Part shown: positions 39,029 to 56,643 of the stretch, piece by piece | How the letters are laid out: the number at the start of each line of letters is the position of its first letter | Numbering within the stretch: the stretch's first letter is position 1 | Assembly (NCBI RefSeq): GCF_000421645.1 | Contig: NZ_ATXK01000007.1 | Location: forward strand, 124,001-188,000 | Length of the DNA stretch: 64,000 nucleotides | Reading direction: 5' to 3' | Source of the DNA: Aurantimonas coralicida DSM 14790 | GTDB taxonomy: Bacteria; Pseudomonadota; Alphaproteobacteria; Rhizobiales; Rhizobiaceae | The notes under the pieces: generated by a model | The model's input: the letters and a program-made list of their open reading frames with translations, nothing else | What the model was told of the DNA's origin: nothing | Database searches by the model: none | Made by a program: the position numbers and the translations under genes

Positions 39029-40612
39029 TCAGGATGTCAGCGGCTGGCGGCGCTTCAGCGCTTCCACGGCGTCTGTCAGGACGGCGTGCAGGCGGTCCCG
39101 CTCGACCTCGGTCAGCCGTTCGAGATCGAGGAAGATGCGGGCGCCCTCGGCATATTCATTGATCACGCCGGGCGCCGCGTCCGTAGCCTCGTCGTGGATG
39201 CCCTCGACCACATAGGGGATCACCTCGCGGCTGATGCCCTTCAGCGAGATCGGCGCCAGCGGCCGGGCCCGCACGTCGTCCTCCACATGGGCATAGGTCT
39301 CGTAGCTCATCACGATGCCGCCGGGCTCGGCGATCTGCTCGAGCCGGGCGGCGAGGTTCGCCTCGGCCCCGATGATCGTGTAGTCCATGCGGTCGGCGCT
39401 GCCGAAATTGCCGACATTACAGAAGCCGGTATTGATGCCCATCCGGGCCTGGAACGGCTTCTCGATGCCGCGGCGACGCCATTCGGCGTTGAGCTCGACC
39501 ATCCGCCGCTGCATGGCGATCGCCATGGCGAGGCACGCCTTGGCGTCCTCGCGCGGGCCCATCGTTTCGGGATCGCCGAAGAAGGCGAGGATCGCGTCGC
39601 CGATGAACTTGTCGACCGTGGCGCCGTGCTCCTGCGCGATCTTCGACATCTCGGTGAAATACTCGTTCAGAAGCTGGGTCAGCTCCTCCGGCTGCAGCCT
39701 CTCTGAGGTGACGGTGAAATCCTTGATGTCGGAGAAGAAGATCGTCAGCTTCTTGCGCTCGGTCGAGATGGTGACGTCGCGCTCGCCGCTGAAAATGCTG
39801 CGATAGACCTGCGGCGACAGATATTTGGAAATCTTCATGGAGACCGAGGCGAGGAAGGAATTCGCCTCTTCCAGTTCGGTGTTCATACGGCCGAAGGTGC
39901 GGGCCTGGCGCCATTGCAGGGCGGCAAAGCAGACGCCGAACAGGCCGGCGCCGACGAAATAGGCGAGGAGATACTTGAAGGAGAGAAGATTGGCGGCGAT
40001 CGGCTGCTCGATCTCAACCTCTTGGATGCCGCGGATGTCGCCGACCTGCCAGTCCCGCTTCGGGCTCTCGGGATGGGCGTTGTGGCAGGCGACGCAGGCC
40101 TCCCCCATGACCACCGGCGCCGCCAGCCGGATGTTGCGGTCGAGCAGCGAGCCGTTGACCTGGGTGATCAGCGGATGGTCGGCGCCTTTGGTCCGGAAGG
40201 TCTGCAGCGCATCGCGCTCGAAGGCGTCGAGGACATGCGGCGCGCGCTTGGCGAAGACTAGGTCGGAGGCGAAGCGGTAGCGGATATTCTCGCCGCGCCG
40301 GCCGATCACCTCGCCCAGCTCCAGCGACAGGGTGGCCGGGATCGGGATCGCGCCTGGTACCTCCAGATAATTATGGGCGGCGATGGTCCGGCCCTCGGGG
40401 TTGGCCAGTACCCGGCCGACGACGTTGCGCGCATAATAGCTGCGGATATCGGTGATCATGGAATTCAGGCTGTTCGCCTGGGCGTTCAGCGCCGTGTCGG
40501 AGAGATGGCGCAGATCCATCCAGACCGCCACCGGCAGAAGCGCCAGCGCCAGCGCCACCGTGATGGCGAAGTAGATCGGCCGTGCCATCAGATACCGGAA
40601 GATCGCGCCCAT
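39029..40612 (-). CDS. Heme-c sensor adenylate/guanylate cyclase
   Basis: A 527-aa class III nucleotide cyclase. Helices at about 12-31 and 211-233 enclose a periplasmic DUF3365/Tll0287-type domain that contains a c-type heme motif Cys173-Val-Ala-Cys176-His177. The cyclase domain (about 280-470) has both metal aspartates (Asp295 in FFSDIKDF, Asp339 in FIGDA), Lys335 and Asp410 expected for ATP selectivity, and the transition-state pair Asn419/Arg423. It is probably a redox- or gas-sensing adenylate cyclase. GAGGAG precedes ATG 40612. Confidence 0.92.
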   Translation of the reverse strand: MGAIFRYLMARPIYFAITVALALALLPVAVWMDLRHLSDTALNAQANSLNSMITDIRSYYARNVVGRVLANPEGRTIAAHNYLEVPGAIPIPATLSLELGEVIGRRGENIRYRFASDLVFAKRAPHVLDAFERDALQTFRTKGADHPLITQVNGSLLDRNIRLAAPVVMGEACVACHNAHPESPKRDWQVGDIRGIQEVEIEQPIAANLLSFKYLLAYFVGAGLFGVCFAALQWRQARTFGRMNTELEEANSFLASVSMKISKYLSPQVYRSIFSGERDVTISTERKKLTIFFSDIKDFTVTSERLQPEELTQLLNEYFTEMSKIAQEHGATVDKFIGDAILAFFGDPETMGPREDAKACLAMAIAMQRRMVELNAEWRRRGIEKPFQARMGINTGFCNVGNFGSADRMDYTIIGAEANLAARLEQIAEPGGIVMSYETYAHVEDDVRARPLAPISLKGISREVIPYVVEGIHDEATDAAPGVINEYAEGARIFLDLERLTEVERDRLHAVLTDAVEALKRRQPLTS

Positions 40613-40857
40613 CGTTCTCTCCTCGAACGGGTGGCACAAATATAACGACAAAACGCGGCAGATGTCTTTGCGTCATTTTTTCGGGGCGCCGCGAGCTGAG
40701 GGGAAACGCCCCGGCCGCGCAGCCAGTACCGGGCCCGTCCGGTACGCCTCAGCGGTCAGCGCTTGTCGCCGCCGCGCCAGACCGCGCGGTGGATCGTCCG
40801 GGCGATCCTCGCCGCCGAGGTGGTTTCGGGCTGGGCGGCCGGGTCCGCCTCTCCCTT

Positions 40858-42441
40858 TCAGGCGAAGGCGTCCGCCTCGGCGGCCTTGCGCTTTGCCACG
40901 AACGCCGTCAGCGCGTCGGCGATGGCGGGATCGAGCGCCGGCGCCTCGTAGGACTCCAGCCAGCGGCGACAGAGCTGGCCGGCGCGGCTCTCGGCGCGCA
41001 ACGCGCCTTCCGCGGACCATTGCTCGAAGGAATTGTTGTCGGCGATGGCCGAGCGGTAGAACGCCGTCTGGAAATTGTCCTGGGTATGCTGGCAGCCAAG
41101 GAAGTGGCTACCCGGACCGACCTCGCGGATCGCCGACATGGCCTGCCCGTTCTCCGTCAGATCGACGCCGCGCGAGAAGGCCTGCATCATGCCGAGCTGG
41201 TCGCAATCCATCACGAATTTCTCGAAGCAGACGGCCAGTCCGCCCTCCAGCCAGCCGGCCGCATGCAGGACGAAATTGGTGCCCGCCAGCATGGTGGAGT
41301 TCAGCGTGTTGGCGCTCTCATAGGCGGCCTGGGCATCGGGCACCTTGGAGGCGCAAAGCGACCCGCCGGTGCGGAACGGCAGGCCGAGGCGGCGCGCCAG
41401 CTGGGCCGCGCCGTAGGAGACCAGCGCCGGCTCGGGCGTGCCGAAGGTCGGCGCCCCGGACTGCATCGAGATCGACGAGGCGAAGGTACCGAAGACCACA
41501 GGCGCGCCGGGCCGGCAGAGCTGGGTGAAGGCGGCGCCGGCCAGCGCTTCGGCCAAAACCTGCGCCAGCGTGCCGGCGACCGTGACCGGGCTCATTGCGC
41601 CGGCGAGGATGAAGGGGGTGACGATGCAGGCCTGGTTGGCGCGGGCATAGACCTTCAGCGCGCCGAGCATGGTGCCGTCGAAGGTCATCGGCGAATTGGC
41701 GTTGATCAGGTTGATGACCACGCAGTTCTCGTCGACGAACTTTTCGCCGAACAGGATGCGGCACATCTCCACCGTGTCGCGGGCGCGTTCCGGCGCCGTC
41801 ACCGAGCCCATGAACGGCTTGTCCGACAGAGTCATGTGGGCCAGCAGCATGTCGAGATGCCGCTTGTTGACCGGGATGTCGACGGGCTCGCAGACGGTGC
41901 CGCCGGAATGATGCAGCGACGGCGCCAGATAGGCGAGCTTCACGATATTGCGGAAATCCTCGATGGTCGCATAGCGCCGCACGCCGTCGAGATCGCGGAC
42001 GAAGGGCGGGCCGTAGACCGGGGCGAAGACCGTCGCCTTGCCGCCGATCTCGACCGAGTTCTCCGGATTGCGCGCATGCTGGACGAAGGTCCGCGGCGCC
42101 GTCTTCAGAAGCTCGCGGCACAGGCCCTTGGGAAACCGGACGCGCTCGCCCGAGACCTCGGCCCCCGCCGCCTTCCACATCTCCAGCGCCTCGGCGTCGT
42201 CGCGGAACTCGATGCCGATCTCTTCGAGGATGGTGTCGGCATTCGCCTCGATGATCGCGAGGCCGGCCTCGTCGAGGAGCTCGTATTCCGGCACGTTGCG
42301 GCGGATGTAGCTCAGCTTCTTTCCGGACGCGCTCTGGACCCGGGCGGCGCGCCGGGCCGTCGCCCCGCCGCCGGTGCCGCGGCCGCGGCGGCCGCCTTCG
42401 GTGCGCGGCATCTCGCTCAGATGTCCGGTTTCGTCGCTCAT
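40858..42441 (-). CDS. MttB-superfamily (trimethylamine methyltransferase-like) protein, non-pyrrolysine
   Basis: A 527-aa TIM-barrel methyltransferase of the MttB superfamily (NVPEYELLDEAGLAIIEANA near the start; YGPPFVRDLDGVRRYATIED; GGTVCEPVDIPVNKRHLDML). Archaeal MttB has a pyrrolysine encoded by in-frame UAG; this frame has none, so it belongs to the MtgB-like branch whose known members demethylate glycine betaine, proline betaine or carnitine to a corrinoid protein. The substrate here is unknown. The N-terminus carries an unusual Arg/Gly-rich stretch (GGRRGRGTGGGATARRAAR). The corrinoid partner is divergently encoded at 42794. GGAG precedes ATG 42441 by 8 nt. Confidence 0.9.
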   Translation of the reverse strand: MSDETGHLSEMPRTEGGRRGRGTGGGATARRAARVQSASGKKLSYIRRNVPEYELLDEAGLAIIEANADTILEEIGIEFRDDAEALEMWKAAGAEVSGERVRFPKGLCRELLKTAPRTFVQHARNPENSVEIGGKATVFAPVYGPPFVRDLDGVRRYATIEDFRNIVKLAYLAPSLHHSGGTVCEPVDIPVNKRHLDMLLAHMTLSDKPFMGSVTAPERARDTVEMCRILFGEKFVDENCVVINLINANSPMTFDGTMLGALKVYARANQACIVTPFILAGAMSPVTVAGTLAQVLAEALAGAAFTQLCRPGAPVVFGTFASSISMQSGAPTFGTPEPALVSYGAAQLARRLGLPFRTGGSLCASKVPDAQAAYESANTLNSTMLAGTNFVLHAAGWLEGGLAVCFEKFVMDCDQLGMMQAFSRGVDLTENGQAMSAIREVGPGSHFLGCQHTQDNFQTAFYRSAIADNNSFEQWSAEGALRAESRAGQLCRRWLESYEAPALDPAIADALTAFVAKRKAAEADAFA

Positions 42442-42793
42442 CGTCAGGTCTCCGGCCAAAGCGGCGGCCCGTACCGGCTCCAGCCACGCACGGGCGTTCG
42501 ATCTGTCACCGATACTAGGAGCAGCACCGGCCGTTGCCGTCTTACCTGCGAAGGCCGGTGACGCGCCGAGAACAATGACGGCGCGGGTCCGCATCGGCCG
42601 GACCCTGGCGGGCGCCTGCGCGCCGTGTCACACCGCGTCGCGCACGTCGCTTTCGTAATGGCGGATGTCGCAGCAAAGAGATTGCGCGGCTGCGGCTGCC
42701 CTAGAGTGAGGGCTGCGGACGGACGAGGCGGCGCAGTCGCTGAAAGTCGCGTTCGGGGCAGTTCCGGGTTCGTCCCGCCACAAGGAATGCGCC
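42442..42793. promoter_or_regulatory. Divergent promoter region of the corrinoid methyltransferase locus
   Basis: 352 bp between the MttB-like gene (minus) and the corrinoid-protein gene (plus). It must hold both promoters. I saw no cobalamin-riboswitch core and no clear operator; a near-palindromic GCGGATGTCGC lies about 42660-42670. Confidence 0.4.
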
Positions 42794-43486
42794 ATGGCCG
42801 ATGCCGACGACATCATTCTGGCCGAACTGTCGGACGACGATCTCGTCGCCCAGATGAAGGACGACCTCTATGACGGCCTGCGCGAGGAGATCGAGGAGGG
42901 AACGCAGATCCTCCTCGAACGCGGATGGACGCCCTACGACGTCCTGACCAAGGCGCTGGTCGGCGGCATGCAGATCGTCGGCGAGGATTTTCGCGACGGC
43001 ATCCTGTTCGTGCCCGAGGTGCTTCTGTCGGCCAATGCGATGAAGGCCGGCATGGCCATCCTGCGGCCGCTGCTCGCCGAGACCGGCGCGCCGAAGCAGG
43101 GCAAGATGGTCATCGGCACGGTGAAGGGCGACATCCACGACATCGGCAAGAATCTCGTCGGCATGATGATGGAAGGCGCCGGCTTCGAGATCGTCGATCT
43201 CGGCATCAATATCGACGTCGACAAATATCTCGCGGCGATCGAGGACCACCAGCCGGAATTCCTCGGCATGTCGGCGCTGCTGACGACGACCATGCCCTAC
43301 ATGAAGGTCGTCATCGACACGCTCGTCCAGAAGGGCATTCGCGACAATGTCATCGTGCTGGTCGGCGGCGCGCCGCTGAACGAGGATTTTGCCAACCAGG
43401 TCGGCGCCGACGCCTATTGCCGCGACGCGGCGGTCACGGTGGAGACAGCCCGGAACCTGATGGAACGGCGGCACAACCAGCTGTGA
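42794..43486 (+). CDS. Corrinoid (B12-binding) methyl carrier protein
   Basis: A 230-aa protein with an N-terminal helical cap (about 1-95) and a B12-binding Rossmann domain. The cobalt-coordinating motif Asp113-x-His115-x-x-Gly118 is in GDIHDIGKNLVG; the dimethylbenzimidazole pocket residues are in GMSALLTTTMPYM and VGGAPLN. It carries methyl groups as methyl-Co(III) between the substrate-specific methyltransferase (MttB-like, divergent) and the pterin methyltransferase encoded at 46820. AAGGA lies 8 nt before the ATG. Confidence 0.94.
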   Translation: MADADDIILAELSDDDLVAQMKDDLYDGLREEIEEGTQILLERGWTPYDVLTKALVGGMQIVGEDFRDGILFVPEVLLSANAMKAGMAILRPLLAETGAPKQGKMVIGTVKGDIHDIGKNLVGMMMEGAGFEIVDLGINIDVDKYLAAIEDHQPEFLGMSALLTTTMPYMKVVIDTLVQKGIRDNVIVLVGGAPLNEDFANQVGADAYCRDAAVTVETARNLMERRHNQL

Positions 43487-43536
43487 CGCCGGCCCTGCCC
43501 GCTCGTCCGGCTGCGCGCCGGACCCCGGATACGCAA

Positions 43537-43567
43537 AAGGCGCGGCGACCGTTGGTCACCACGCCTT
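43537..43567. terminator. Hairpin terminator between convergent corrinoid and entericidin genes
   Basis: An interrupted stem of about 12 bp (43537-43550 with 43554-43567), loop GTT. On the minus strand it is followed by TT of the TTTT at 43535-43538, so it ends the entericidin transcript; it may also work on the plus strand. Confidence 0.6.
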
Positions 43568-43589
43568 CTCGAACTGCTGACGGGCGCGT

Positions 43590-43736
43590 TTACCGGGCGA
43601 CGTCGTTCACGGCGGCGCCGGTGGCATCCACCGTGTTGCCCACGTCGCGGCCGACGCCGCGCACGGTGTTGGCGCAGGCCGAAAGCGCCAGGGCTCCGGC
43701 GAGAAGAGTGGACACGATGGCGATGCGCTTGGTCAT
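43590..43736 (-). CDS. Entericidin A/B-family lipoprotein
   Basis: A 48-aa lipoprotein. The signal ends in the lipobox LSAC with lipid-modified Cys21, and the mature part is the short entericidin body (CANTVRGVGRDVGNTV). These small membrane lipoproteins belong to the general stress response in Alphaproteobacteria; the exact role is unknown. A perfect EcfG-type promoter (43770-43794) lies 34 nt upstream and a hairpin terminator downstream. Confidence 0.92.
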   Translation of the reverse strand: MTKRIAIVSTLLAGALALSACANTVRGVGRDVGNTVDATGAAVNDVAR

Positions 43737-43769
43737 TGTGGGGTCTCCGGTTGGCAAATGTGACCGAAA

Positions 43770-43794
43770 AACGGTGCAGTGCCCCGCTGGTTCC
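43770..43794 (-). promoter_or_regulatory. EcfG-type promoter of the entericidin gene
   Basis: On the minus strand GGAAC (43794-43790), 16 nt, CGTT (43773-43770). Both elements match the alphaproteobacterial EcfG consensus exactly. Confidence 0.8.
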
Positions 43795-43826
43795 CACCAT
43801 GCTCCGGTTTTTGACAGGCGTGGTGA

Positions 43827-44507
43827 ATGTCAGGTGACCGGGCAATGAATCCCCTGCCGCATGACAGCGCGCAGATGTCGGCCACGCCCGCCCCCGAAAC
43901 GCTGACGGTCATCGCCTGTGGCGCCGTCGCCCGCGAGGTTCTGGCCGTCCTGTCGGCCAACGGGCTGGCGCATGTCACGGTCACCTGCCTGCCGGCCGAC
44001 CTGCACAACGCGCCGCAGAAGATCGCGCCTGCGGTCGAGGCCGCCATCATGGCGGCCCGCGCAGACGGCGCCGGGCGGATCTTCATCGCCTATGCCGATT
44101 GCGGCACCGGCGGCCTCCTCGACGCGGTCTGTGCGCGCCACGACGTCGAACGCATCGCCGGGCCGCACTGCTACGCGTTCTTTGCCGGCAACGATCGCTT
44201 CGCCGCCGATGCGGAGGCGCAGATGACGACCTTCTGGCTGACCGACTTTCTCGCCCGCCAGTTCGATGCCTTCGTCACCCGGCCGATGAAGCTCGACCGC
44301 CATCCCGAACTGATCGGCATGCTCTTCGGTCACTACGAACGCGTGGTCTATCTCGCCCAGACCGACGCCCCGGATCTCGACCGGCGCGGCCGGGAGATCG
44401 CGGCGAAACTGGGGCTTGGCTACGAGCGCCGCTTCGTCGGCTACGGCGACCTGAGCGACGCCATCGTCGCTGCCGCCGCGCCCGTGCCGGAGCACGCGCC
44501 CGCCTGA
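43827..44507 (+). CDS. DUF1638 protein of the corrinoid methyltransferase locus
   Basis: A 226-aa cytosolic protein of DUF1638, function unknown. Conserved-looking Cys/His/Asp motifs include VIACGAVAREV, CLPADLHNAPQ, YADCGTGG and GPHCYAFFAG, which could bind a metal or a corrinoid. The family is repeatedly found with MttB-like and corrinoid proteins, in archaea as well as bacteria, which suggests an accessory role in methyl transfer or corrinoid handling; no activity is established. An alternative start at ATG 43845 has a better ribosome site (AGGTGA). Confidence 0.85.
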   Translation: MSGDRAMNPLPHDSAQMSATPAPETLTVIACGAVAREVLAVLSANGLAHVTVTCLPADLHNAPQKIAPAVEAAIMAARADGAGRIFIAYADCGTGGLLDAVCARHDVERIAGPHCYAFFAGNDRFAADAEAQMTTFWLTDFLARQFDAFVTRPMKLDRHPELIGMLFGHYERVVYLAQTDAPDLDRRGREIAAKLGLGYERRFVGYGDLSDAIVAAAAPVPEHAPA

Positions 44508-44572
44508 GTCCCCCTGCTGCCGGCCCGTTTGCGCGGTTCGCACCCGTGGACGGCGGGCGGCACGATCATGGT

Positions 44573-44591
44573 CCCTGCGACCTTCGCAGGG
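44573..44591. other. Hairpin downstream of DUF1638
   Basis: CCCTGCGA (44573-44580) pairs with 44584-44591 around a CCT loop; no T tract. Possible 3' end of the DUF1638 transcript. Confidence 0.35.
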
Positions 44592-44730
44592 CCCGCGGGG
44601 ATCACGTCTTGATCTTTACAGGGAAAACCCCGATTTAACGCCTTCAAGGGCACAGTGGATCGACGAAGCCCGGTCAGGCGGCAGCGTCGTTCGCGGACCG
44701 TTCCTCACACGCGACGGAACAGGCCGCATC

Positions 44731-45414
44731 ATGAGCTTTTCCAAAGTCCCCGTTCCCAGAGCGTCCTCCGTGTCACCTGCCGTCTTCTCCAGCCTCCGAC
44801 AATCGCTCCGGCGGCGTGGTGCCAAGCGGCAGAAGCGGATTTCGGCGATCCTGCGCGGGCTGTCCCACCGCAACCGTGCCGGCGCGACGATCGGCGAGCT
44901 CTCCCAGGCCTTCGACACCCGCTCCTTCGGCGCCTTCTTCATCCTGTTCGGCGGCCTGAACCTGGTGCCGTTGCCGCCCGGCGCGTCGATCTTTCTCGGC
45001 CTGCCGCTGGTGCTGTTCACGCTGCAGCTGGCGGTCGGCCGGCATCGGCTGTGGCTGCCCGAGCGCATCCGCAAGATCCGGATCACCTCCGAAATGCTGG
45101 GGCGCGTGGTCACCCGCATCGGACCGATGCTGCGCCGGATCGAGCGGCTCGCCCGGCATCGCTACTGGCCCGAGCCCGAATGGCTGCTGCTGTCGGGCAT
45201 TGGCTGGTTCTGCTTCGTCATGTCGATCCTGATCGCCATTCCGTTTCCGCTGACCAACATGTTCCCGGGCGTCTCCGTCGCCATCGCCGGCATCGCCATC
45301 ACGGCGCGCGACGGTCTCTGGCTGATCGCCTCGATCCTCGTCGGCATCGCCTCGACGATCTTCCTTCTCAGCGTCTACGGCGCCGCGGCCCTGGCCGTGA
45401 TGGGGCTCTTCTAG
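44731..45414 (+). CDS. exoD: ExoD family membrane protein
   Basis: A 227-aa protein with four to five hydrophobic helices and the ExoD start (TIGELSQAFDTRSFGAFFIL, then LNLVPLPPGASIFLGLPLV). ExoD was named for an effect on exopolysaccharide in rhizobia and tolerance to alkaline pH; the mechanism is unknown. It sits inside the corrinoid locus but has 223 bp upstream and 157 bp downstream, so it may be an independent unit. Confidence 0.88.
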   Translation: MSFSKVPVPRASSVSPAVFSSLRQSLRRRGAKRQKRISAILRGLSHRNRAGATIGELSQAFDTRSFGAFFILFGGLNLVPLPPGASIFLGLPLVLFTLQLAVGRHRLWLPERIRKIRITSEMLGRVVTRIGPMLRRIERLARHRYWPEPEWLLLSGIGWFCFVMSILIAIPFPLTNMFPGVSVAIAGIAITARDGLWLIASILVGIASTIFLLSVYGAAALAVMGLF

Positions 45415-45571
45415 CCGCCCCACGCCCCACCGGCTGCCGTGGCCGGACCGCATCAGGACGCCTGTCCCCGCGCTCCGCGCGCCCGATGTCGCAAACGGCA
45501 TCGCGCCCCGTCGCGCCCGGCATATCCGCACCGTTTCCGCCGGACCACAGTGGGGTCATCGGAGGTGGCGG

Positions 45572-45871
45572 ATGGCAGAACTGCAGATCGTCTACTGGCG
45601 TGACATTCCCGCCCAGATCGTGGTGCGGCAGGGTCGCAAATCCGCCCGCCGCGAACTTCCTTCCCGCTTCATCGAGGCCATCGACCGCTGCGCCATGCGC
45701 GTCGGCGCGAAGGACAGCGACACCTATCTCGCCGAATGGCGGCGGGGCTCGTCGCCGGCCGAAGTGAGCGACCTCGAAGCCGAAGCCGAACGGCTGACCC
45801 GCGATATCGAACAGAGCTACGACGGCGACCGTCTCAAGGCGCTCGTCGCGAACGAGGGGCGCGAACCATGA
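45572..45871 (+). CDS. PF13769 'Virulence factor' family protein
   Basis: A 99-aa soluble protein starting MAELQIVYWRDIPAQIVVRQ, the signature of PF13769. Despite the name no virulence role is established. The gene precedes and overlaps the MetF-like gene (ATGA), tying it to one-carbon metabolism. It may be a small partner of the MetF-like or methyltransferase proteins. GGAGG lies 6-7 nt before the ATG. Confidence 0.88.
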   Translation: MAELQIVYWRDIPAQIVVRQGRKSARRELPSRFIEAIDRCAMRVGAKDSDTYLAEWRRGSSPAEVSDLEAEAERLTRDIEQSYDGDRLKALVANEGREP

Positions 45872-46776
45872 AGCCGATCGGATACGACATGCATGCCGGC
45901 CGCACGGCCATGCCCGCCTCCATCGAGATCGCCCCGCGCCAGGCGCTGGAATCGCGCGATCTGCCGGGGCTCTTTCCGCCCGGCACGAAGACCTATCTCT
46001 GCGATGTCGGCGTCGATGCGGTGAAGGATTTCGTCCATGCCGTCCGGCGGGTCCGCGACCTCGGCTACGAACCGGTGCCGCATATTCCGGCGCGCCGTAT
46101 GCGCAGCCATGCCGAATTGCGCGATCGCGTCCAGGCCTATGCCGAAGAAGGCGGCGCCAGCGACGTGCTGGTGATCGGCGGCGGGCTGACGCGACCGGCC
46201 GGGCCCTACAGCTCGACCATGGAGGTCATCTCGACGGGCATCCTCGACCGCCACGGCTTTCGCGACATCGGCGTCGCCGGCCACCCGGAGGGCACGCCCG
46301 ACTTTTCCGCCGCCACCGCATCGGAAGCGCTGCGGCTGAAACGCGATTTCGCCCGGCGCAGCGATGCCCGGCTGCGGATCGTCACGCAGTTCGGCTTCGA
46401 CGCGGCGGTCTATCTGCACTGGGCGGAGTCCGTCCGCGCGGCGGCCATCGACCTGCCGATCCATCTCGGTGTCGCCGGCCCCGCGAAGATCGCGACGCTG
46501 ATCCGCTTCGCGGCCCTCTGCGGCATCGGCAATTCGGTGTCCGTCCTGAAGAAGCGGCCGAGCGCCCTCACCACGCTCGCCACCTCCCATTCGCCCGAAT
46601 CCGTCGCCGGGCCGATCGAGCGCCACTGGGCCGAGACGCCAGATACCCCGGTCAGGCAGCTTCACGTCTTTCCCTTCGGAGGTCTCGCGGCCTCGGCGCA
46701 ATGGCTCTACGGCCGCGGCTCCTGGATGGACGCGACGGCGATCCAGACGGCGGCGGGCGCCCGCCAGCAAGCCTGA
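45868..46776 (+). CDS. MetF-like methylenetetrahydrofolate reductase-family protein
   Basis: A 302-aa TIM-barrel protein. It matches the MetF family distantly: GYEPVPHIPARRMRSHAEL, VLVIGGGL, GVAGHPEGTP, QFGFDAAVYLHWAESV and HLGVAGPAKIATL. It is a divergent paralogue of true MetF and is likely to interconvert methyl- and methylene-tetrahydrofolate, so that methyl groups from the corrinoid pathway enter the folate pool. Cofactor use is unproven. It starts at ATG 45868, overlapping the PF13769 stop, and is followed 43 nt later by the pterin methyltransferase. Confidence 0.85.
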   Translation: MKPIGYDMHAGRTAMPASIEIAPRQALESRDLPGLFPPGTKTYLCDVGVDAVKDFVHAVRRVRDLGYEPVPHIPARRMRSHAELRDRVQAYAEEGGASDVLVIGGGLTRPAGPYSSTMEVISTGILDRHGFRDIGVAGHPEGTPDFSAATASEALRLKRDFARRSDARLRIVTQFGFDAAVYLHWAESVRAAAIDLPIHLGVAGPAKIATLIRFAALCGIGNSVSVLKKRPSALTTLATSHSPESVAGPIERHWAETPDTPVRQLHVFPFGGLAASAQWLYGRGSWMDATAIQTAAGARQQA

Positions 46777-46819
46777 CGCCGCTTACCGCGCGACGCCTTT
46801 ACCGACCGGAGCTTCGGCC

Positions 46820-47773
46820 ATGACCCGCACCATCGTCGCATCCGCCAGCCGCGAGGTCGTGATCGGCTTCGACCAGCCCTTCTGCGTCATCGGCGAACGC
46901 ATCAATCCGACCGGCCGCAAGGTCCTCGCCGCCGAGATGGTCGCGGGCAATTTCGAGACGGTGACGCGCGACGTCCTCGCCCAGGTCGCCGCCGGCGCCA
47001 CCATGCTCGACGTCAATGCCGGCGTCACCGCCGTCGACCCGAACGTCTCCGAACCGCCGCTGCTGGTCGAGACCATCCGCCTCGTCCAGAGCCTCACCGA
47101 CCTGCCGATCTCGATCGATTCCTCCGTCTCCCCGGCGCTGAGCGCCGCGCTGGCGGTCGCCAAGGGACGGCCGCTGGTCAATTCGGTCACCGGCGAGGTG
47201 GAAAAACTCGAGGCGATCCTGCCGCTGGTGAAGCAATACGACGTGCCGGTCGTTGCCATCTCCAACGACGAGACCGGCATCTCCGAAGACCCGGATGTGC
47301 GCTTCGAGGTGGCAAGGCGCATCGTCCGCCATGCCGCCGATTACGGCATCAGCGCCGCCGACATCGTCGTCGATCCGCTGGTCATGCCGATCGGCGCGAT
47401 GGGCACCGCCGGCCGGCAGGTCTTTGCGCTGGTCCGCCGGCTGCGCGAGGAGCTCGGGGTGAACACCACCTGCGGCGCCTCGAACATCTCCTTCGGCCTG
47501 CCCCACCGCCACGCCGTCAACGCCGCCTTCCTGCCGATGGCCATCGCCGCCGGCATGACCTCGGCCATCATGAATCCCTGCCGGCCGCAGGAAATGGAAG
47601 CGGTGCGGGCCGCCAACGTTTTGATGGGCAATGATCCCTCCTGCGGCGAGTGGATCCGCCACTATCGCGACGCGGCGCCGGCGGGCGGTGCGTCCGCAGC
47701 GGCCGCCGCTCCTGCCGCCGGAGCAGGAGGGCGGCGGCGTGGCGGGCGCGAAGGCCGGAGGGCGGCGTCTTGA
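46820..47773 (+). CDS. Methyltetrahydrofolate:corrinoid methyltransferase (pterin-binding domain)
   Basis: A 317-aa pterin-binding TIM barrel. Signatures are VIGERINPTGRKVLAAEM, MLDVNAGVT, ISIDSSVSPALSAAL and NTTCGASNISFGLPHR. It is of the MtgA/AcsE-type, transferring the methyl group from the corrinoid protein (42794) to tetrahydrofolate (or the reverse). After about residue 285 the protein has a low-complexity Ala/Gly/Arg tail that other family members lack. The order with the MetF-like gene completes the path from methyl-corrinoid to methylene-tetrahydrofolate. Confidence 0.92.
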   Translation: MTRTIVASASREVVIGFDQPFCVIGERINPTGRKVLAAEMVAGNFETVTRDVLAQVAAGATMLDVNAGVTAVDPNVSEPPLLVETIRLVQSLTDLPISIDSSVSPALSAALAVAKGRPLVNSVTGEVEKLEAILPLVKQYDVPVVAISNDETGISEDPDVRFEVARRIVRHAADYGISAADIVVDPLVMPIGAMGTAGRQVFALVRRLREELGVNTTCGASNISFGLPHRHAVNAAFLPMAIAAGMTSAIMNPCRPQEMEAVRAANVLMGNDPSCGEWIRHYRDAAPAGGASAAAAAPAAGAGGRRRGGREGRRAAS

Positions 47774-47870
47774 CCGGCCGGCCGTTTAAACTGCAGATCG
47801 TGTCGTTGCGGCGCTTTTTGCAGGTGCGAAATAAAGCTACGGATCGGGAGACCATTTCGCCATCTGGCGC

Positions 47871-47891
47871 GTTTGGTAGCAACTACCGAAC
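47871..47891. promoter_or_regulatory. Inverted repeat before the gene at 47906
   Basis: GTTTGGTAG and CTACCGAAC are separated by CAA: nine positions per arm with one G-T type mismatch. It lies just before the AAGGA ribosome site and could be an operator or a hairpin masking translation. Confidence 0.35.
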
Positions 47892-47905
47892 AAGGAACAC
47901 CCCGC

Positions 47906-48271
47906 ATGAGCCGCAACCCGAACCCCGCGTCCTTCTTCCACGCACCCAAGACGGCGGCGGAACTCACGACGCTGATGCTGATGTCGCCCTTTGTCATCGG
48001 CACGCGCCTGACCCAGTTCTCGATGGCCGCCGCGTCGCCGCAGGCCAAGGATCGAGACGAAGTCTCCCGCATGCTGAGCGAAAAGATGCAGGCGGCCGGC
48101 GAATCCATCGTGGCGATGAACCTCGCCACCATCGAGGCGATGACCTCTCTCGCCATGGCAACGGTGACCGGCTCCGGCCGCGGCAGCAACCACGGCGACA
48201 CGATCCTGTCAGCCGGGCTGAAGCCCTATTCCCAGCGCGTGCGCGCCAACCGCAAGCGTCTCGCCCAGTAA
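47906..48271 (+). CDS. Unknown 121-aa protein (possibly phasin-like)
   Basis: A 121-aa protein of mostly helical, Ala/Met-rich character (LTTLMLMSPFVIGTRLTQFS, then ESIVAMNLATIEAMTSLAMA) with a basic end (YSQRVRANRKRLAQ). It has no signal peptide. The amphipathic helices recall phasins that coat polyhydroxyalkanoate granules, but the match is only in character. AAGGA precedes ATG 47906. It lies between the pterin methyltransferase and the corrinoid activator, so a role in the same pathway is conceivable. Confidence 0.65.
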   Translation: MSRNPNPASFFHAPKTAAELTTLMLMSPFVIGTRLTQFSMAAASPQAKDRDEVSRMLSEKMQAAGESIVAMNLATIEAMTSLAMATVTGSGRGSNHGDTILSAGLKPYSQRVRANRKRLAQ

Positions 48272-48296
48272 GCCTCAGCCGGAACACGGCGCGCCG

Positions 48297-50549
48297 ATGA
48301 CCACCGGCGCCGATCCCCTCGTCCTGTTCATGCCGTCCGGCCGGCGCGGCCGCTTTCCCCGCGGCACGCCCGTCATCGAGGCGGCGCGAACGCTCGGGGT
48401 CTATGTGGAAAGCGTCTGCGGCGGACGCGGCATCTGCGGGCGCTGCCAGATCGAGATCGCCGAAGGCGTCTTCGCCAAGCACAAGATCGTCTCGGCCGCC
48501 GACCATCTCTCCGCCTGGTCGGCCAAGGAAGCGCGCTACGCCGCCAAGCGGCCCTTCCCGGCGGGCCGGCGCCTGTCCTGCTCGGCGACCATCGAGGGCG
48601 ACCTCGTCGTCGACCTGCCCACCGGCATGGCGATCAATTCCGCCGTCGTGCGCAAGGCGGTCGACACCCGCGACATTGCCCGCGATCCGGCCATTCGCCT
48701 GCTCTATGTCGAGGTGGCCGAGCCCGACATGCATGCGCCGCTCGGCGATCTCGACCGGATCTTCGCGGCGCTGGAACGGGACTGGGACGTGGCGGCGCCG
48801 ATCGTCGATCCGGCGATCCTGCCCGAGGTGCAGGCGATCCTGCGCCGCGGCGGCTGGAAGGTGACCTGCGCCATCGCGCTGGACCGGGACGACGAGCGTC
48901 CGCGCCTCATGGGACTCTATCCGGGCCTGAAGAACGAGGCCTATGGCATCGCGGTCGACATCGGCTCGACGAGCATCGCGCTGCATCTCTCCTCGCTGCT
49001 GTCCGGCGCGACCATCGCCTCGGCCGGGGCGCCCAATCCGCAGATCCGCTTCGGCGAGGACCTGATGAGCCGGGTGTCCTACGTGATGATGAACCCGCAG
49101 GGCCGGCCGCAGATGACCGTGGCAGTCCGCGCCGCGATCCAGGCGCTGATCGAAGAGGTCGCGGCGGAGGCACGCATCGCCACCGCCGACATCATGGACT
49201 GCGTCTTCGTCGGCAATCCGATCATGCATCATCTGTTTCTCGGCATCGACCCGACCGAGCTCGGCCAGGCGCCCTTCGCGCTGGCGGTCTCGGGCGCCGT
49301 CGCCGTGCCGGCCAGCGATCTCGACCTGACCCTGCATCCGGCGGCGCGCGCCTATCTGCTCCCCTGCATCGCCGGCCATGTCGGCGCCGATGCGGCCGCC
49401 GTGACCCTGTCGGAAGGGCCGCACCGCCAGGACGAGACCATGCTGATCGTCGATGTGGGCACCAATGCCGAGATCGTCCTAGGCAACCGCAGCCGGCTGC
49501 TTGCCGCCTCCTCGCCCACCGGCCCGGCCTTCGAGGGGGCCGAGATCTCCAGCGGCCAGCGCGCGGCACCCGGCGCGATCGAGCGCGTGCGGATCGATCC
49601 CGAGACGCTGGAGCCGCGCTTCAAGGTGATCGGCGTCGAAACATGGTCGCACGAGGCGGGCTTCGCCGAGGCCGCGCGAGCCGTGGGCGTCACCGGCATT
49701 TGCGGATCGGGTATCATCGAGGTCATCGCCGAGATGTTCCTTGCCGGGATCGTTACCGAAGACGGCGTCATCGACGGCGCGGCCGCCGCGCGGTCGCCGC
49801 GGATCGTGCAGGAAGGCCGCACCTTCGCCTATGTGCTGCACGAGACGGCGGTCCAGACAATCCGCGTCCTGCAGACAGACATCCGCGCCATCCAGCTCGG
49901 CAAGGCGGCCCTCTACGCCGGCATCAAGCTGCTGATGGACCGGTTCGCGGTTCCGCCTGCACCCGCCGCGGCTTCGGACGATCTGCCGCTCGACCTCGAC
50001 CCCGCCGAAGCCCCGGCCCTCGCCGACGCGCTGTTTGCCGCGCAGGCCGGGCGGGCCGCCGAACCGGCCATCCCCCTGCCGCCGCCGCTTCCCGTACCCG
50101 AGACATCCGCGACGGCAGTGCCGATCCGCATCGACCGGATCGCGCTGGCCGGCGCCTTCGGCTCCTTCATCGAACCGCGCTATGCGATGATCCTGGGACT
50201 GGTGCCCGATTGCGACCTGGCAAAATGCGGCTCCATCGGCAACGCGGCGGGCGCCGGTGCCCGCATGGCGCTGCTCAACCGGGCCTATCGCCGCGAGATC
50301 GAGGCGACGGTCACCCGCATCGCCAAGATCGAGACCGCGCTGGAGCCCGATTTCCAGCGCCATTTCGTCGCCGCCATGGCGTTTCCCAACAAGCTCGACG
50401 CCTATCCCGAGCTCTGCCGGGTGCAGCCGCTGCCCAATCGCAGCGCGGACGGCAGTGTCGTTGCAAATCGCCCAGACACCGGCGGTAGTCCCGTCGGCGA
50501 CGGGCGCCGGCGCCGGGCCGGATCGCGGGCGCGCGAACGCCAGGCGTGA
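48297..50549 (+). CDS. RACo-like reductive activator of corrinoid proteins (2Fe-2S + ASKHA, DUF4445)
   Basis: A 750-aa protein. The N-terminal ferredoxin domain has a [2Fe-2S] set at Cys41, Cys47, Cys50 and Cys95 (SVCGGRGICGRC and RRLSCSA). A linker is followed by an ASKHA ATPase fold (VDIGSTSIALHL, LIVDVGTNAEIVLGN, GICGSGIIEVIAEM). This is the layout of RACo and of the activators in O-demethylase and methylamine systems, which use ATP to return oxidised Co(II) corrinoid to Co(I). An Ala/Pro-rich insert of about 60 residues (near 560-610) interrupts the ASKHA domain. The partner is the corrinoid protein at 42794. Confidence 0.92.
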   Translation: MTTGADPLVLFMPSGRRGRFPRGTPVIEAARTLGVYVESVCGGRGICGRCQIEIAEGVFAKHKIVSAADHLSAWSAKEARYAAKRPFPAGRRLSCSATIEGDLVVDLPTGMAINSAVVRKAVDTRDIARDPAIRLLYVEVAEPDMHAPLGDLDRIFAALERDWDVAAPIVDPAILPEVQAILRRGGWKVTCAIALDRDDERPRLMGLYPGLKNEAYGIAVDIGSTSIALHLSSLLSGATIASAGAPNPQIRFGEDLMSRVSYVMMNPQGRPQMTVAVRAAIQALIEEVAAEARIATADIMDCVFVGNPIMHHLFLGIDPTELGQAPFALAVSGAVAVPASDLDLTLHPAARAYLLPCIAGHVGADAAAVTLSEGPHRQDETMLIVDVGTNAEIVLGNRSRLLAASSPTGPAFEGAEISSGQRAAPGAIERVRIDPETLEPRFKVIGVETWSHEAGFAEAARAVGVTGICGSGIIEVIAEMFLAGIVTEDGVIDGAAAARSPRIVQEGRTFAYVLHETAVQTIRVLQTDIRAIQLGKAALYAGIKLLMDRFAVPPAPAAASDDLPLDLDPAEAPALADALFAAQAGRAAEPAIPLPPPLPVPETSATAVPIRIDRIALAGAFGSFIEPRYAMILGLVPDCDLAKCGSIGNAAGAGARMALLNRAYRREIEATVTRIAKIETALEPDFQRHFVAAMAFPNKLDAYPELCRVQPLPNRSADGSVVANRPDTGGSPVGDGRRRRAGSRARERQA

Positions 50550-51261: not shown

Positions 51262-52314
51262 ATGGGTCCAGGAAATGTGGGCGGCCTGATCGAGAAGCCC
51301 CGGCCCGGCGCGAGCGAGGGTCCGGGCTCCGGCCCGAAGCGGACCATCGTCTTCCTGCTCGTTCCGAATTTCTCGATGATCGCCTTCGCGACCGCCATCG
51401 AGCCGTTGCGGATCGCCAATCGCGTCGTCGGCCGCGAGATCTATCGCTGGCGCCTCGCCTCGCCGAACGGTCAGCCGGTGCGCGCCTCCAACGGCGTCGA
51501 AGTGGCGGTCACCAGTTCGGTGGAAGCCGAGCGCAAGGCGCTGCCCTCCGAGCACCGTCCGTCGATGGTGTTTGCCTGTTCCGGCGTCTTCGTCGAGGAC
51601 TTCACCGACAAGACCAGCTTCTCCTATCTGCGCGAAAGCCATCAGCGCGGGATCAGCATCGGCGGCCTGTGTACCGGGGCGTGGATTCTGGCCCGCGCCG
51701 GGCTTCTGGCCGACCGGCGCTGCGCCATCCACTGGGAGAACCTGCCCGGCTTTTCCGAGGCCTTCCCGCGGGTCGATGCCTATGCCGATCTCTACGAGAT
51801 CGACCACAACATCTACACCTGCGCCGGCGGCACCGCCGCCCTCGACATGATGCTGACGCTGATCGGCGAGGATCTCGGCGAGGACGTGGTCAACCGGGTC
51901 TGCGAGCAGGCGCTGACCGACCGGGTCCGCAGTTCACAGGATCGCCAGCGACTGCCGCTGCGCGCCCGGCTCGGCGTGCAGCACTCCAAGGTGCTGCGGG
52001 TGATCGAGATCATGGAGGCCAATCTCGCCGACCCGTTGTCGCTGGTCGAGATCGCCGAGGATGTCGGCCTGTCGCGCCGGCAGGTGGAGCGGCTGTTTCA
52101 CCGGGAGATGGGCCGCTCGCCGGCCCGCTACTATCTGGAGATCCGGCTCGACCGGGCGCGGCATCTGCTGCTGCAGTCGCAATTGCCGATCGTCGAGATC
52201 GCGGTGGCCAGCGGCTTCGTCTCGGCCTCGCATTTTTCCAAATGCTACCGCGAACTCTATTCGCGCTCGCCCCAGCAGGAGCGCGCGACGCGTTCGGTTC
52301 TCGCCCCGGCCTGA
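51262..52314 (+). CDS. GlxA/GbdR-type AraC family regulator (DJ-1/PfpI + HTH)
   Basis: A 350-aa regulator. A DJ-1/PfpI-like amidotransferase fold (about 28-195; IVFLLVPNFSMIAFATAIEP and ISIGGLCTGAWILARAGLL) senses the ligand, and a C-terminal AraC double helix-turn-helix (about 240-340; LVEIAEDVGLSRRQVERLF and VASGFVSASHFSKCYREL) binds DNA. This architecture includes GbdR, which activates glycine betaine/dimethylglycine catabolism, and CdhR for carnitine. The position between the corrinoid locus and the dimethylglycine dehydrogenase-like gene makes a similar role likely. The first 25 residues are Gly/Pro-rich and disordered. Confidence 0.88.
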   Translation: MGPGNVGGLIEKPRPGASEGPGSGPKRTIVFLLVPNFSMIAFATAIEPLRIANRVVGREIYRWRLASPNGQPVRASNGVEVAVTSSVEAERKALPSEHRPSMVFACSGVFVEDFTDKTSFSYLRESHQRGISIGGLCTGAWILARAGLLADRRCAIHWENLPGFSEAFPRVDAYADLYEIDHNIYTCAGGTAALDMMLTLIGEDLGEDVVNRVCEQALTDRVRSSQDRQRLPLRARLGVQHSKVLRVIEIMEANLADPLSLVEIAEDVGLSRRQVERLFHREMGRSPARYYLEIRLDRARHLLLQSQLPIVEIAVASGFVSASHFSKCYRELYSRSPQQERATRSVLAPA

Positions 52315-53948: not shown

Positions 53949-56462
53949 TCAGCCGCGCAGACGGACATTCTCCGGGTCGAAGGGACTTTCGCCGATCACC
54001 GTAGCGTCGTGGAGCGTGCCGAGGATGCGGATCGTCAGCCGCGTCCCCTCGCCGGCATGGGCCGGATCGAGCATCGCCAGGGCAAGGCTCTTGCCGACCC
54101 GCCAGCCGAAGCCGCCATTGGTGGCGCGGCCGACCAACACGCCGTCGGCATAGACCGGTTCGGAGCCGCGGGCGTCGGCGTCGGTCACGCCGTGCACCTC
54201 GAGGGTCGCGAACTGCCAGCGCAGGCCGTTCTCGCGGGCCGCCACCACGGCGTCCCGGCCAATGAAATCGCCCTTGCTGGGATGAACGAACCTCTCAAGG
54301 CCCGACTCGAAGGCATTGTATTCGATCGACAGTTCGCGCGGGATCTGGCGGTAGGACTTCTCCAGCGCCATCGCCCCCATGGCGCGAATACCGAAGGGGC
54401 GGATGCCGAATTCGGCCCCGGCCTCCATCAAGAGGTCGTAGAGCGCGTTCTGCATCTCGATCGGGTGATGCAGCTCCCAGCCGAGTTCGCCGACGAAATT
54501 GACCCGCAGGGCGGTGCAGGCCACCGGACCGACCGACAGGCGCTGTCCGGTCAGCCAGGGAAACGCCGCGTTGGAGAGGTCCGTGCGGGTGAGCTTCGCC
54601 AGCACCTCGCGTGATTTCGGGCCGACGACCACGAGGACGCCGAGCGCATGGGTCACTGGATGCATCGCCACGCTGACGTCGCCCGGCAGCGCCTTCTGCA
54701 GGATGTCATGGTCGATGCCCTCATAGGCGCCGCCGGAGACCAGATAGTAGCTCTCCGCGCCGGCCTTGTAGACGGTGAACTCCGAGCGCACGCCGCCTGC
54801 CGGGGTCAGGAGATGGCAGAGCGCCACGCGGCCCGGCGTTTTCGGAATGCGGTTGGCAAGGAGCCCGTCGAGCCAGGCGGCGGCGCCCGGCCCGCTGACA
54901 TAGGCCTTGGCGAAGGGCGTCATGTCGAGGAGGCCGACAGCCTCGTGGACCGCCCGCACCTCGGCGCCAACATGCTCGAAATAGTTGGAGCGGCGGAAGG
55001 ACCAGCGCTCGCGGATGCGGCCGGTGTGATCGGCCGGCGCATGATTGTGCTTCATCAGGACGTCGGCGCCGACATCGAGCTCTGCCTCGGGCACCGCATA
55101 GCCGTCGGGGGCGAACCAGTTGGCCCGTTCCCAGCCATAGACGGAGCCGAAAACGGCACCGAGCACCTTCTGCCGCTCATAGGACGGCGAGGTTTTCAGC
55201 GGCCGGGCGGCGGCGCGTTCCTCGTCGGGATAATGCACCGAGAAGACGTTGGCATAGGCCTCCTCGTTCTTGGCGCGCAGATAGCCTTCGCCGGCATAGG
55301 GGCCGAAGCGGCGCGGATCGACGCCGGCCAGATCCACGGTGGGTTCGCCGTCGACGATCCATTCGGCGAGCTGCCAGCCCGCCCCGCCGGCCGCGGTGAT
55401 GCCGAAGGAATGGCCCTCGTTGAGCCAGAAATTGGTGCGGTTCGGCGCCGGACCGACAATGGGCGAGCCATCGGGCGTATAGGCGATGGCGCCGTTATAG
55501 ACCTTCTTGATGCCGACCTCACCAAAGGCCGGCACGCGGGCGATGGCGGCCTCGATATGCGGCATCAGCCGGTCGAGATCCTCCTGGAAGAGCTCGTATT
55601 CGCTGTCGGCGTCCGGCCCGTCGAGATAGCAGCAGGGCGCGCCGATCTCGTAGGGGCCGAGCAGCAGGCCGCCATTCTCCTCGCGCATGTACCAGGAGGA
55701 ATCGCTTTCCCGCAGCACTCCCATTTCCGGCAGGCCCTGGCGGCGGCGCTCGACGATCGCCGGATGCGGTTCGGTGACGATGTACTGGTGCTCGACCGGG
55801 ATCACCGGCACGTCCAGCCCGACCATGCGCCCCGTCCGCCGGGCGAAATTGCCGCTGGCCGAGATGACGTGGTCGCAGACGATCTCGCCCTTGTCGGTGA
55901 CGATCTTCCACTCGCCGGAGGCGAGCTGCTCGATGGCGCTGACGGTGGTGTTGCGGTGGATGGTGGCGCCGCGGTCGCGGGCGCCGCGGGCCAGCGCCTG
56001 GGTCAGGTCGGCGGGCTGAATATAGCCGTCCTCGGGATGCTGGATCGCGCCGAGAATGCCGTCGGTCTCGCAGAGCGGCCAGATCTCCTTCAGCTCTGCG
56101 GGCGTCAGCAGCCTGACCGGCACACCGATCGTCTCGGCGACGCCGGCATAGTACATGTACTCGTCCCAGCGGTCCCTGGTGCGCGCCAGCCGGATATTGG
56201 TGACGTTCGAGAAGCCGACATTCATGCCGGTTTCTTCCTGCAGCTTGCGATAGAAGCGCACGGAATAGCGGTGCAGCTGGCCGACGGCATAGCTCATGTT
56301 GAACAGCGGCAGCAGGCCGGCGGCGTGCCAGGTGGAGCCGGAAGTCAGTTCGCGACGCTCGATCAGGACGCTGTCGGTCCAGCCCTTGCGGGCCAGATGA
56401 TAGAGCGTCGACACGCCGACCACGCCGCCGCCGATGACCACTGCCCGCGCCCGATCCTGCAT
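53949..56462 (-). CDS. Dimethylglycine dehydrogenase-like FAD/GcvT protein
   Basis: An 837-aa two-domain enzyme. The N-terminal FAD domain (about 1-400) has VVIGGGVVGVSTLYHLARKG and GSTWHAAGLL with the His that binds FAD covalently in DMGDH/sarcosine dehydrogenase. The C-terminal half (about 430-830) is a GcvT-type folate-binding aminomethyltransferase domain (TPFAKAYVSGPGAAAWLDGL; LRVNFVGELGWELHHP). Such enzymes demethylate dimethylglycine or sarcosine and pass the formaldehyde unit to tetrahydrofolate. The substrate is inferred from the BHMT, proXWV and GbdR-type context. The start is ATG 56462 with GAGGGG; the longer frame upstream has no ribosome site. Confidence 0.9.
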   Translation of the reverse strand: MQDRARAVVIGGGVVGVSTLYHLARKGWTDSVLIERRELTSGSTWHAAGLLPLFNMSYAVGQLHRYSVRFYRKLQEETGMNVGFSNVTNIRLARTRDRWDEYMYYAGVAETIGVPVRLLTPAELKEIWPLCETDGILGAIQHPEDGYIQPADLTQALARGARDRGATIHRNTTVSAIEQLASGEWKIVTDKGEIVCDHVISASGNFARRTGRMVGLDVPVIPVEHQYIVTEPHPAIVERRRQGLPEMGVLRESDSSWYMREENGGLLLGPYEIGAPCCYLDGPDADSEYELFQEDLDRLMPHIEAAIARVPAFGEVGIKKVYNGAIAYTPDGSPIVGPAPNRTNFWLNEGHSFGITAAGGAGWQLAEWIVDGEPTVDLAGVDPRRFGPYAGEGYLRAKNEEAYANVFSVHYPDEERAAARPLKTSPSYERQKVLGAVFGSVYGWERANWFAPDGYAVPEAELDVGADVLMKHNHAPADHTGRIRERWSFRRSNYFEHVGAEVRAVHEAVGLLDMTPFAKAYVSGPGAAAWLDGLLANRIPKTPGRVALCHLLTPAGGVRSEFTVYKAGAESYYLVSGGAYEGIDHDILQKALPGDVSVAMHPVTHALGVLVVVGPKSREVLAKLTRTDLSNAAFPWLTGQRLSVGPVACTALRVNFVGELGWELHHPIEMQNALYDLLMEAGAEFGIRPFGIRAMGAMALEKSYRQIPRELSIEYNAFESGLERFVHPSKGDFIGRDAVVAARENGLRWQFATLEVHGVTDADARGSEPVYADGVLVGRATNGGFGWRVGKSLALAMLDPAHAGEGTRLTIRILGTLHDATVIGESPFDPENVRLRG

Positions 56463-56643
56463 GACCACCCCTCGTCTGCCAGACTGCCGTAGCGGCGTGT
56501 CGAGCCTAGTGGAGCGGTTGGCGCACACGCAGTCTCTTTGCGACATCGGCTGTCGGGCGAACGGCGCAGCCTGGCTGCCGGCCGACCGGGACCGCCACCG
56601 GACCAACCTGCCGGGAGGGTTTTGTTAACCATGTTCGGGGAGG

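Follow-up and report, generated by a model that had tools for sequence, protein, structure and literature searches.

The gene cluster

The window analysed here, a 64,000-nucleotide stretch of the Aurantimonas coralicida DSM 14790 genome (C7:124001-188000; 4.6 Mb in 38 contigs), carries at positions 40858-50549 a cluster of genes for corrinoid-dependent methyl transfer, encoding an MttB-superfamily methyltransferase (MtgB), a corrinoid-binding protein (MtgC), a DUF1638 protein, a PF13769 protein, a short methylenetetrahydrofolate reductase (MTHFR; here MetF2), a methyltetrahydrofolate (methyl-THF):corrinoid protein methyltransferase (MtgD) and a RACo-like reductive activator. An earlier note on this DNA had named these seven proteins as a methyl-transfer route to tetrahydrofolate (THF) with its own activator, and the families and motifs are indeed present: all seven lie within those borders, each with a family match above the Pfam cut-off (Table 1), and the genes are on the plus strand except for the MttB-like gene, which is on the minus strand. 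We consider it very probable that the cluster belongs to the MtgBCDE type and demethylates glycine betaine aerobically by way of a corrinoid protein: methyl groups taken from this osmolyte would be passed on to folate in a vitamin-B12-dependent manner. The system itself is known, and this is a compact case of a described type; the part worth following is DUF1638 and PF13769, two co-conserved families without known function.

The MtgB reading frame is open, with no internal stop, and encodes an MttB-superfamily member without pyrrolysine; the pyrrolysine-type MttB model TIGR02369 gives 274.2 bits, below its cut-off of 525, and a single copy of an MttB-like gene was found in the genome. MtgC carries the DxHxxG motif as DIHDIG at residue 113. 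The RACo-like protein matches PDB 3zyy with 278 bits and has a domain set identical to that of RACo/AcsV of anaerobes, including an N-terminal cysteine pattern of the 2Fe-2S type (Cys 41/47/50/95; Fer2 20.5 bits, just under the cut-off of 21), while the archaeal RamA model TIGR04270 scores 91.8 bits, below its cut-off of 500. It differs from the anaerobic proteins in having DUF1638 and PF13769 beside its gene, and in a Pro-rich stretch of about 60 residues (approximately residues 550-610) whose insertion splits the match to the C-terminal ASKHA domain.

Table 1. Genes of the cluster and its surroundings, in window coordinates.
Gene product	Position	Strand	Match
OpuAC-type substrate-binding protein, glycine betaine/choline-type ABC transporter	31684..32682	+	PF04069, 193 bits
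ABC permease, choline/glycine betaine type	32928..33815	+	TIGR03416, 261 bits; ProW, 252 bits
ABC ATPase, betaine/proline/choline family	33718..34875	+	TIGR01186, 340.5 bits (cut-off 326.6); PF00005
MtgE-like homocysteine S-methyltransferase	35621..36631	+	PF02574, 222.6 bits; PRK07534, 504 bits (cut-off 338)
Adenylate/guanylate cyclase with N-terminal Tll0287-like domain	39029..40651		
MtgB, MttB-superfamily methyltransferase	40858..42441	-	PF06253, 784.5 bits (searched from residue 2, 40858-42438)
MtgC, corrinoid-binding protein	42794..43486	+	PF02607; PF02310
DUF1638 protein, presumed corrinoid-reactivation partner	43827..44507	+	PF07796, 98.5 bits
ExoD-like protein, inserted in operon	44731..45414	+	PF06055, 148 bits
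PF13769 ('Virulence_fact') protein, 99 aa	45572..45871	+	PF13769, 83.7 bits
MetF2, short MTHFR, presumed 5-methyl-THF oxidising	45868..46776	+	PF02219, 29.1 bits (cut-off 24)
MtgD, methyl-THF:corrinoid protein methyltransferase	46820..47773	+	PRK07535, 374.9 bits (cut-off 259); PF00809, 101.6 bits
Phasin-like ORF (PhaP6 family)	47909..48271	+	NF045536, 66.8 bits (below cut-off 100)
RACo-like ATP-dependent reductive activator of corrinoid proteins	48297..50549	+	PF14574, PF17651, PF17650 (above cut-off)
GbdR-like AraC/GlxA-type regulator	51262..52314	+	NF052371 (GbdR), 366 bits
Dimethylglycine/sarcosine dehydrogenase (DMGDH)-like flavoprotein with folate domain	53949..56606	-	DAO, 241 bits; FAO_M; GCV_T, 211 bits; GCV_T_C

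Published counterparts

The earlier note had put the cluster forward as an incompletely described system. For the system as a whole this is not supported: a description of its core appeared in 2025 (PMC12478193), after one of the DUF1638 and RamA-like parts in 2018 (PMC5764234; published papers are cited throughout from excerpts, to which our statements about them apply). The first of these reports MtgB, MtgC, MtgD, MtgE, MetF2, RamA and DUF1638 in Ruegeria pomeroyi DSS-3, where mtgC and mtgD mutants fail to grow on glycine betaine and need methionine, and presents the aerobic, corrinoid-based removal of methyl groups from glycine betaine as a major marine route. All of these families recur in A. 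coralicida, with the differences that nearly all the genes lie in one region, that MetH is also present, and that we count PF13769 as part of the system. The second describes in Phaeobacter inhibens a three-part methionine synthase with two reactivation proteins, one RamA-like and the other DUF1638, the mutants of which are rescued by methionine; it shares with our cluster the MtgC, MtgD, MtgE, RamA-like and DUF1638 families, and differs in that no usual methionine synthase gene was found there and that the excerpts deal with methionine, not glycine betaine. We carry over from this work on relatives both the putative functions of MtgC and MtgD and the need for the RamA-like and DUF1638 proteins in methionine synthesis.

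No role for DUF1638 is proposed in the excerpts of PMC5764234, which record that Sinorhizobium meliloti has both reactivation proteins despite having MetH; the genome here likewise pairs activator and DUF1638 with a full MetH, and S. meliloti is further said to combine MtgBCDE with both reactivation modules (PMC12478193). The P. inhibens Bmt protein, a homologue of MtgE, is reported to use betaine directly in vitro (PMC12366255), which differs from the view taken in PMC12478193.

Co-conservation and gene order

In 289 genomes of the class, searched as one set with five Pfam families, DUF1638 occurs in 53, PF13769 in 54, RACo_C_ter in 65, MTTB in 62 and PF02965, the MetH reactivation domain, which served as a contrast, in 155. 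MttB and RACo each accompany DUF1638 in 52 of its 53 genomes, and PF13769 is accompanied by a RACo match in 54 of 54 and by MttB in 53 (the RACo match of G228 is a 19.4-bit fragment, below the cut-off). With PF02965, DUF1638 shows no association (25/53; p 0.36, by a Fisher test that ignores kinship among genomes). Both families show strong co-conservation with the genes for the MttB-like protein and RACo.

DUF1638 and PF13769 occur together in 48 genomes, and in the mixed families f17, f30, f43, f67, f108 and f132 the genome lacking DUF1638 (G247, G028, G265, G065, G212 and G131) also lacks PF13769 and RACo, G247 retaining an MttB match. Against a strict pairing of the two, DUF1638 stands without PF13769 in five genomes and PF13769 without DUF1638 in six, a divergence seen within families f50, f58, f110, f123, f126 and f143, among others. 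Six of these 11 genomes are less than 90% complete (G074, G127, G173, G178, G193, G228); the others comprise G125 (98% complete) and G281 (97%), which have DUF1638 and no PF13769, and G109 (99%), G176 and G007 (93%), with the opposite pattern.

The two genes are often neighbours: at 33 of 55 places PF13769 follows DUF1638 in the same orientation within 200 bp, at eight it lies farther off on the same contig, and at 14 it is on other contigs. To these data we added two sets of loci, each followed to 10 kb or the contig end. The relative set holds the best 80 of at least 595 confirmed PF13769 relatives, the nearest by PF13769 among these 80 being Aurantimonas marina and A. aggregata (Hyphomicrobiales); the other set holds 40 loci from the 289 genomes, 20 of the 22 places where PF13769 is not adjacent to DUF1638 and 20 of the 33 where it is, so half were picked for PF13769 away from DUF1638, and many are cut by contig ends. 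All 120 loci were selected via PF13769, and its presence among them is therefore no statistic. The one-strand order MtgC > DUF1638 > PF13769 > MtgD > RACo appears at 69 of the 80 relative loci and 14 of the 40 others, a recurrence which argues that the arrangement is more than chance. The full order reads MtgB< MtgC> DUF1638> (ExoD>) PF13769> MetF module> MtgD> (phasin>) RACo> GbdR>; within the relative set MtgB was recognised at 62 loci, MtgC at 73, DUF1638 at 75, MtgD at 79, RACo at 74, GbdR at 47 (and at 5/40 other loci) and MtgE at 23.

Two extra genes stand inside the A. coralicida cluster. The ExoD-like gene, between DUF1638 and PF13769, is present at 22/80 relative loci, and the phasin-like ORF, between MtgD and RACo, at 8/80; neither was seen at the 40 other loci. 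One relative (L082, G185:C88) has two PF13769 genes about 1.3 kb apart on one strand, encoding identical proteins, possibly an assembly artefact.

MetF2 and two oxidation modules

The loci show two MetF modules. A short MetF was found at 47 of the 120 loci and MetV (PF12225) at 59; 14 have neither and none has both. MetV together with a long MetF occupies the PF13769-MtgD gap in 58 of the 59 MetV loci, and short MetF does so in 36 of its 47; at four more it comes after PF13769 and the stretch shows no recognised MtgD, and at seven it has another position, in most cases behind RACo. The exclusion applies to single loci and not to whole genomes, since G200 combines a MetV locus with a short MetF gene on a different contig. 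These two putative methyl-THF oxidation modules take each other's place in related operons. The MetV loci recall acetogen MetVF in their pair of genes; A. coralicida differs, with no PF12225 match in its genome, and its biosynthetic MetF is a separate gene (310 bits), distinct from MetF2.

A profile of 22 short MetFs matches PDB 7xg9 with 284 bits over profile positions 6-281, covering nearly all of that protein, versus 26-37 bits for classical MTHFRs, so that by sequence MetF2 groups with the short MTHFR of 7xg9. We take 7xg9 and 7xlf to be the MTHFR of Sphingobium SYK-6, the PDB listing giving no organism. Invariant across the 22 sequences are E20, HPE and TQF, presumably catalytic residues of MTHFRs. 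A recently found MTHFR subfamily, exemplified by that of Sphingobium SYK-6, is reviewed as preferring 5-methyl-THF oxidation (PMC13001107), and by analogy MetF2 is presumed to work in the oxidative direction; it differs from that subfamily in being mostly tied to a corrinoid system. We also considered as a marker of oxidative direction the Asp of the GD motif, which is kept in 7xg9 and 1v93 and replaced by G, E, A or S in 22/22 short MetFs of mtg-type loci; this argument was dropped because 7xg9 keeps the Asp.

DUF1638

The DUF1638 protein contains the motifs DCGTGG (91-96) and HCY (114-116), as the earlier note had noticed. In both of two alignments (22 and 51 sequences) C31, E37, H60, C92, G93, G96, H114, C115, T139, D140 and Q178, among others, are invariant. 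A model built from the 51 sequences (mean pLDDT 92.6) consists mostly of alternating strands and helices; judged from the predicted strands and helices, C31, C54 and C92 lie at the ends of the first three strands or up to four residues beyond them, and T139/D140 and Q178 sit at later strand ends, a placement as expected of residues that would share one cleft in an alpha/beta protein. A Foldseek search of the PDB with this model gave no significant match (best E 6.4e-3; TM-scores by query length at most 0.36 among the 50 matches listed of 1219, with E up to 10), and we therefore claim no fold family; the sequence profile gave one chance-level match in the PDB. Arylmalonate decarboxylase and similar two-lobed folds were dropped, the matches being weak.

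We read DUF1638 as a likely dedicated partner of RACo in corrinoid reactivation. It might instead load the corrinoid, or insert or handle a metal: C31, C92, C115, H60 and H114 are invariant, and C31, C54 and C92, near strand ends in the prediction, could form a metal or cofactor site. That role seems rather unlikely to us, given the tight tie of DUF1638 to RACo and the remark of Price et al. (PMC5764234) that P. inhibens probably cannot live without its cobalamin synthesis genes, whereas DUF1638 is not essential there. Among 5.39 million open-access papers DUF1638 is mentioned in three and PF07796 in one. The S. meliloti DUF1638 protein SMc04333 appears in the table of an AniA/PhaR study with a log2 change of -3.60, a possible link to polyhydroxybutyrate regulation.

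PF13769

The Pfam name of PF13769 presumably goes back to a staphylococcal protein known as conserved virulence factor. Its presence across the 289 genomes follows the activator. Short MetF (profile match with E <= 1e-20) occurs in 52 genomes, 13 without a RACo match and 39 with one; PF13769 is present in 0/13 of the former, in 36/39 of the latter, and in 18/26 RACo genomes without short MetF. By these proportions PF13769 tracks RACo better than MetF. Among the 13 is G127, a genome of only 74% completeness in which DUF1638 is present.

The earlier note had suggested for this protein, among other roles, that of a partner of the MetF-like protein; as such it could be, for instance, an electron acceptor or stabilising subunit. 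Gene position speaks for such a role: the PF13769 stop and the MetF2 start share 4 nt, short MetF occupies the gap downstream of PF13769 in most of its loci, and where PF13769 lies away from DUF1638, 18 of 20 loci (of 22) have MetF, MtgD or RACo as the first recognised same-strand gene downstream of it. The genome counts run the other way, above all the absence of PF13769 from every short-MetF genome without RACo, and on this search we rejected the MetF partnership as the principal explanation, regarding it as quite improbable.

It is possible, though less likely than not, that corrinoid reactivation in aerobic Alphaproteobacteria involves PF13769 as a so far overlooked component, which with DUF1638 could help RACo hold or restore Co(I) on MtgC under oxygen, perhaps through contact with the 2Fe-2S domain of RACo or with Co(II)-MtgC. 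Three observations weigh against a part for PF13769 in corrinoid activation. Of the two controls in the family searches, Bacillus subtilis has PF13769, with RACo, MttB and DUF1638 not found, and Methanosarcina acetivorans has RACo, MttB and DUF1638 matches, with PF13769 not found, so that PF13769 is neither exclusive to corrinoid activation nor universal in it; a role special to aerobes would fit this pattern. The third is that PF13769, unlike the RamA-like and DUF1638 proteins, goes unnamed in the P. inhibens fitness screen, and the word 'virulence' is absent from PMC5764234, as it is from PMC12478193. Structure prediction adds little: the model has a pLDDT of 77.7, its best Foldseek match has E 0.68, and the sequence profile has no matches in the PDB.

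PF13769 seems not to have been linked to the corrinoid betaine system before. The 5.39 million open-access papers searched (subscription papers and supplements lay outside this scope) hold no mention of PF13769 or pfam13769 and no paper joining at least four of the terms virulence factor, RACo, corrinoid, glycine betaine and methylenetetrahydrofolate reductase, and nothing useful was found on CvfC or Virulence_fact. Co-occurrence turns this family, misleadingly labelled 'virulence factor', into a specific candidate for the corrinoid-activation side. DUF1638 and PF13769 are two of the most constant proteins in aerobic betaine demethylation, and we found no assigned job for either. If the proposal is true, a Pfam 'virulence factor' is an accessory of vitamin B12 enzymes, and the two proteins would explain how oxygen-labile chemistry is run in air.

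Substrate and proposed route

The borders drawn in the earlier note were too narrow, and left out the neighbours that point to glycine betaine: the betaine/choline-type ABC transporter, the MtgE-like gene, the GbdR-like regulator and the DMGDH/sarcosine-dehydrogenase-like gene belong to the same context. The family annotated for the MtgE-like protein is betaine-homocysteine S-methyltransferase, with Cys212/278/279 in NCG and GGCCG motifs, and a combination of DAO, FAO_M and GCV_T domains is typical of dimethylglycine/sarcosine dehydrogenases. Because transporter, regulator and DMGDH-like genes surround the cluster, we infer that glycine betaine is the likely substrate.

Several matches weigh against so specific an assignment: the NCBIfam ProX/ChoX match to the substrate-binding protein is weak and below cut-off, as are, in being below cut-off, both permease models (TIGR03416, ProW), the GbdR model (cut-off 480) and the two NCBIfam MtgC models (NF047996 at 208.6 bits, cut-off 370), and among 25 of its 26 matches the DMGDH-like protein has no NCBIfam model above cut-off. 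In addition, the MttB superfamily includes enzymes for several quaternary amines, and even a close match within it leaves the substrate unfixed. The same machinery might accordingly serve another amine (proline betaine, carnitine, gamma-butyrobetaine or trimethylamine), since MttB-superfamily enzymes for several of these exist (PMC12478193, Discussion). We think this improbable, both for the betaine genes around the cluster and for the affinities of MtgB, which matches PDB 4yyc (labelled only putative) with 887 bits and 2qne and 9yce (the latter labelled glycine betaine methyltransferase) with 415 and 413, far above the 133 bits for the trimethylamine methyltransferase 7xcl.

On the betaine demethylation reading, glycine betaine would be taken up by the OpuA-type transporter. 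MtgB would transfer a single methyl group from it to the Co(I) centre of MtgC, and the resulting dimethylglycine would go to the DMGDH-like enzyme. MtgD would then move the methyl group from MtgC to THF, and MetF2 would oxidise the resulting 5-methyl-THF to 5,10-methylene-THF. MtgC that had been oxidised to Co(II) would be brought back to Co(I) by RACo at the expense of ATP, DUF1638 serving RACo as a dedicated partner, and PF13769 may be a further component of this corrinoid/activator side, not of the MetF2 side. Aerobic life is suggested by the Aurantimonas relatives. Methyl-MtgC could also feed methionine formation by MtgE; the cell should not depend on this, since a full-length MetH with the PF02965 reactivation domain is encoded as well. 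Given that MetH, it is simplest to assume that activator and DUF1638 work here for betaine demethylation.

That the cluster is mainly a split methionine synthase, in which MtgD, MtgC and MtgE carry the methyl group of methyl-THF to homocysteine and the MttB-like protein is a side entry, would suit the MtgE-like gene in the window and the need of P. inhibens (PMC5764234) and R. pomeroyi (PMC12478193) for the homologues in methionine synthesis, and is very unlikely in view of MetH with its own reactivation domain, the indifference of DUF1638 to the presence or absence of that domain, MetF2 in the operon, and the adjoining betaine transport, GbdR-like and DMGDH-like genes.

Other features of the window

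No RNA families were found in the window, and promoter and terminator scans of it gave matches no more than chance. The true start of the ABC ATPase is probably further in than 33718, and the SoxD of sarcosine oxidase is located elsewhere in the genome. The gene for the adenylate/guanylate cyclase lies between the MtgE and MtgB genes.

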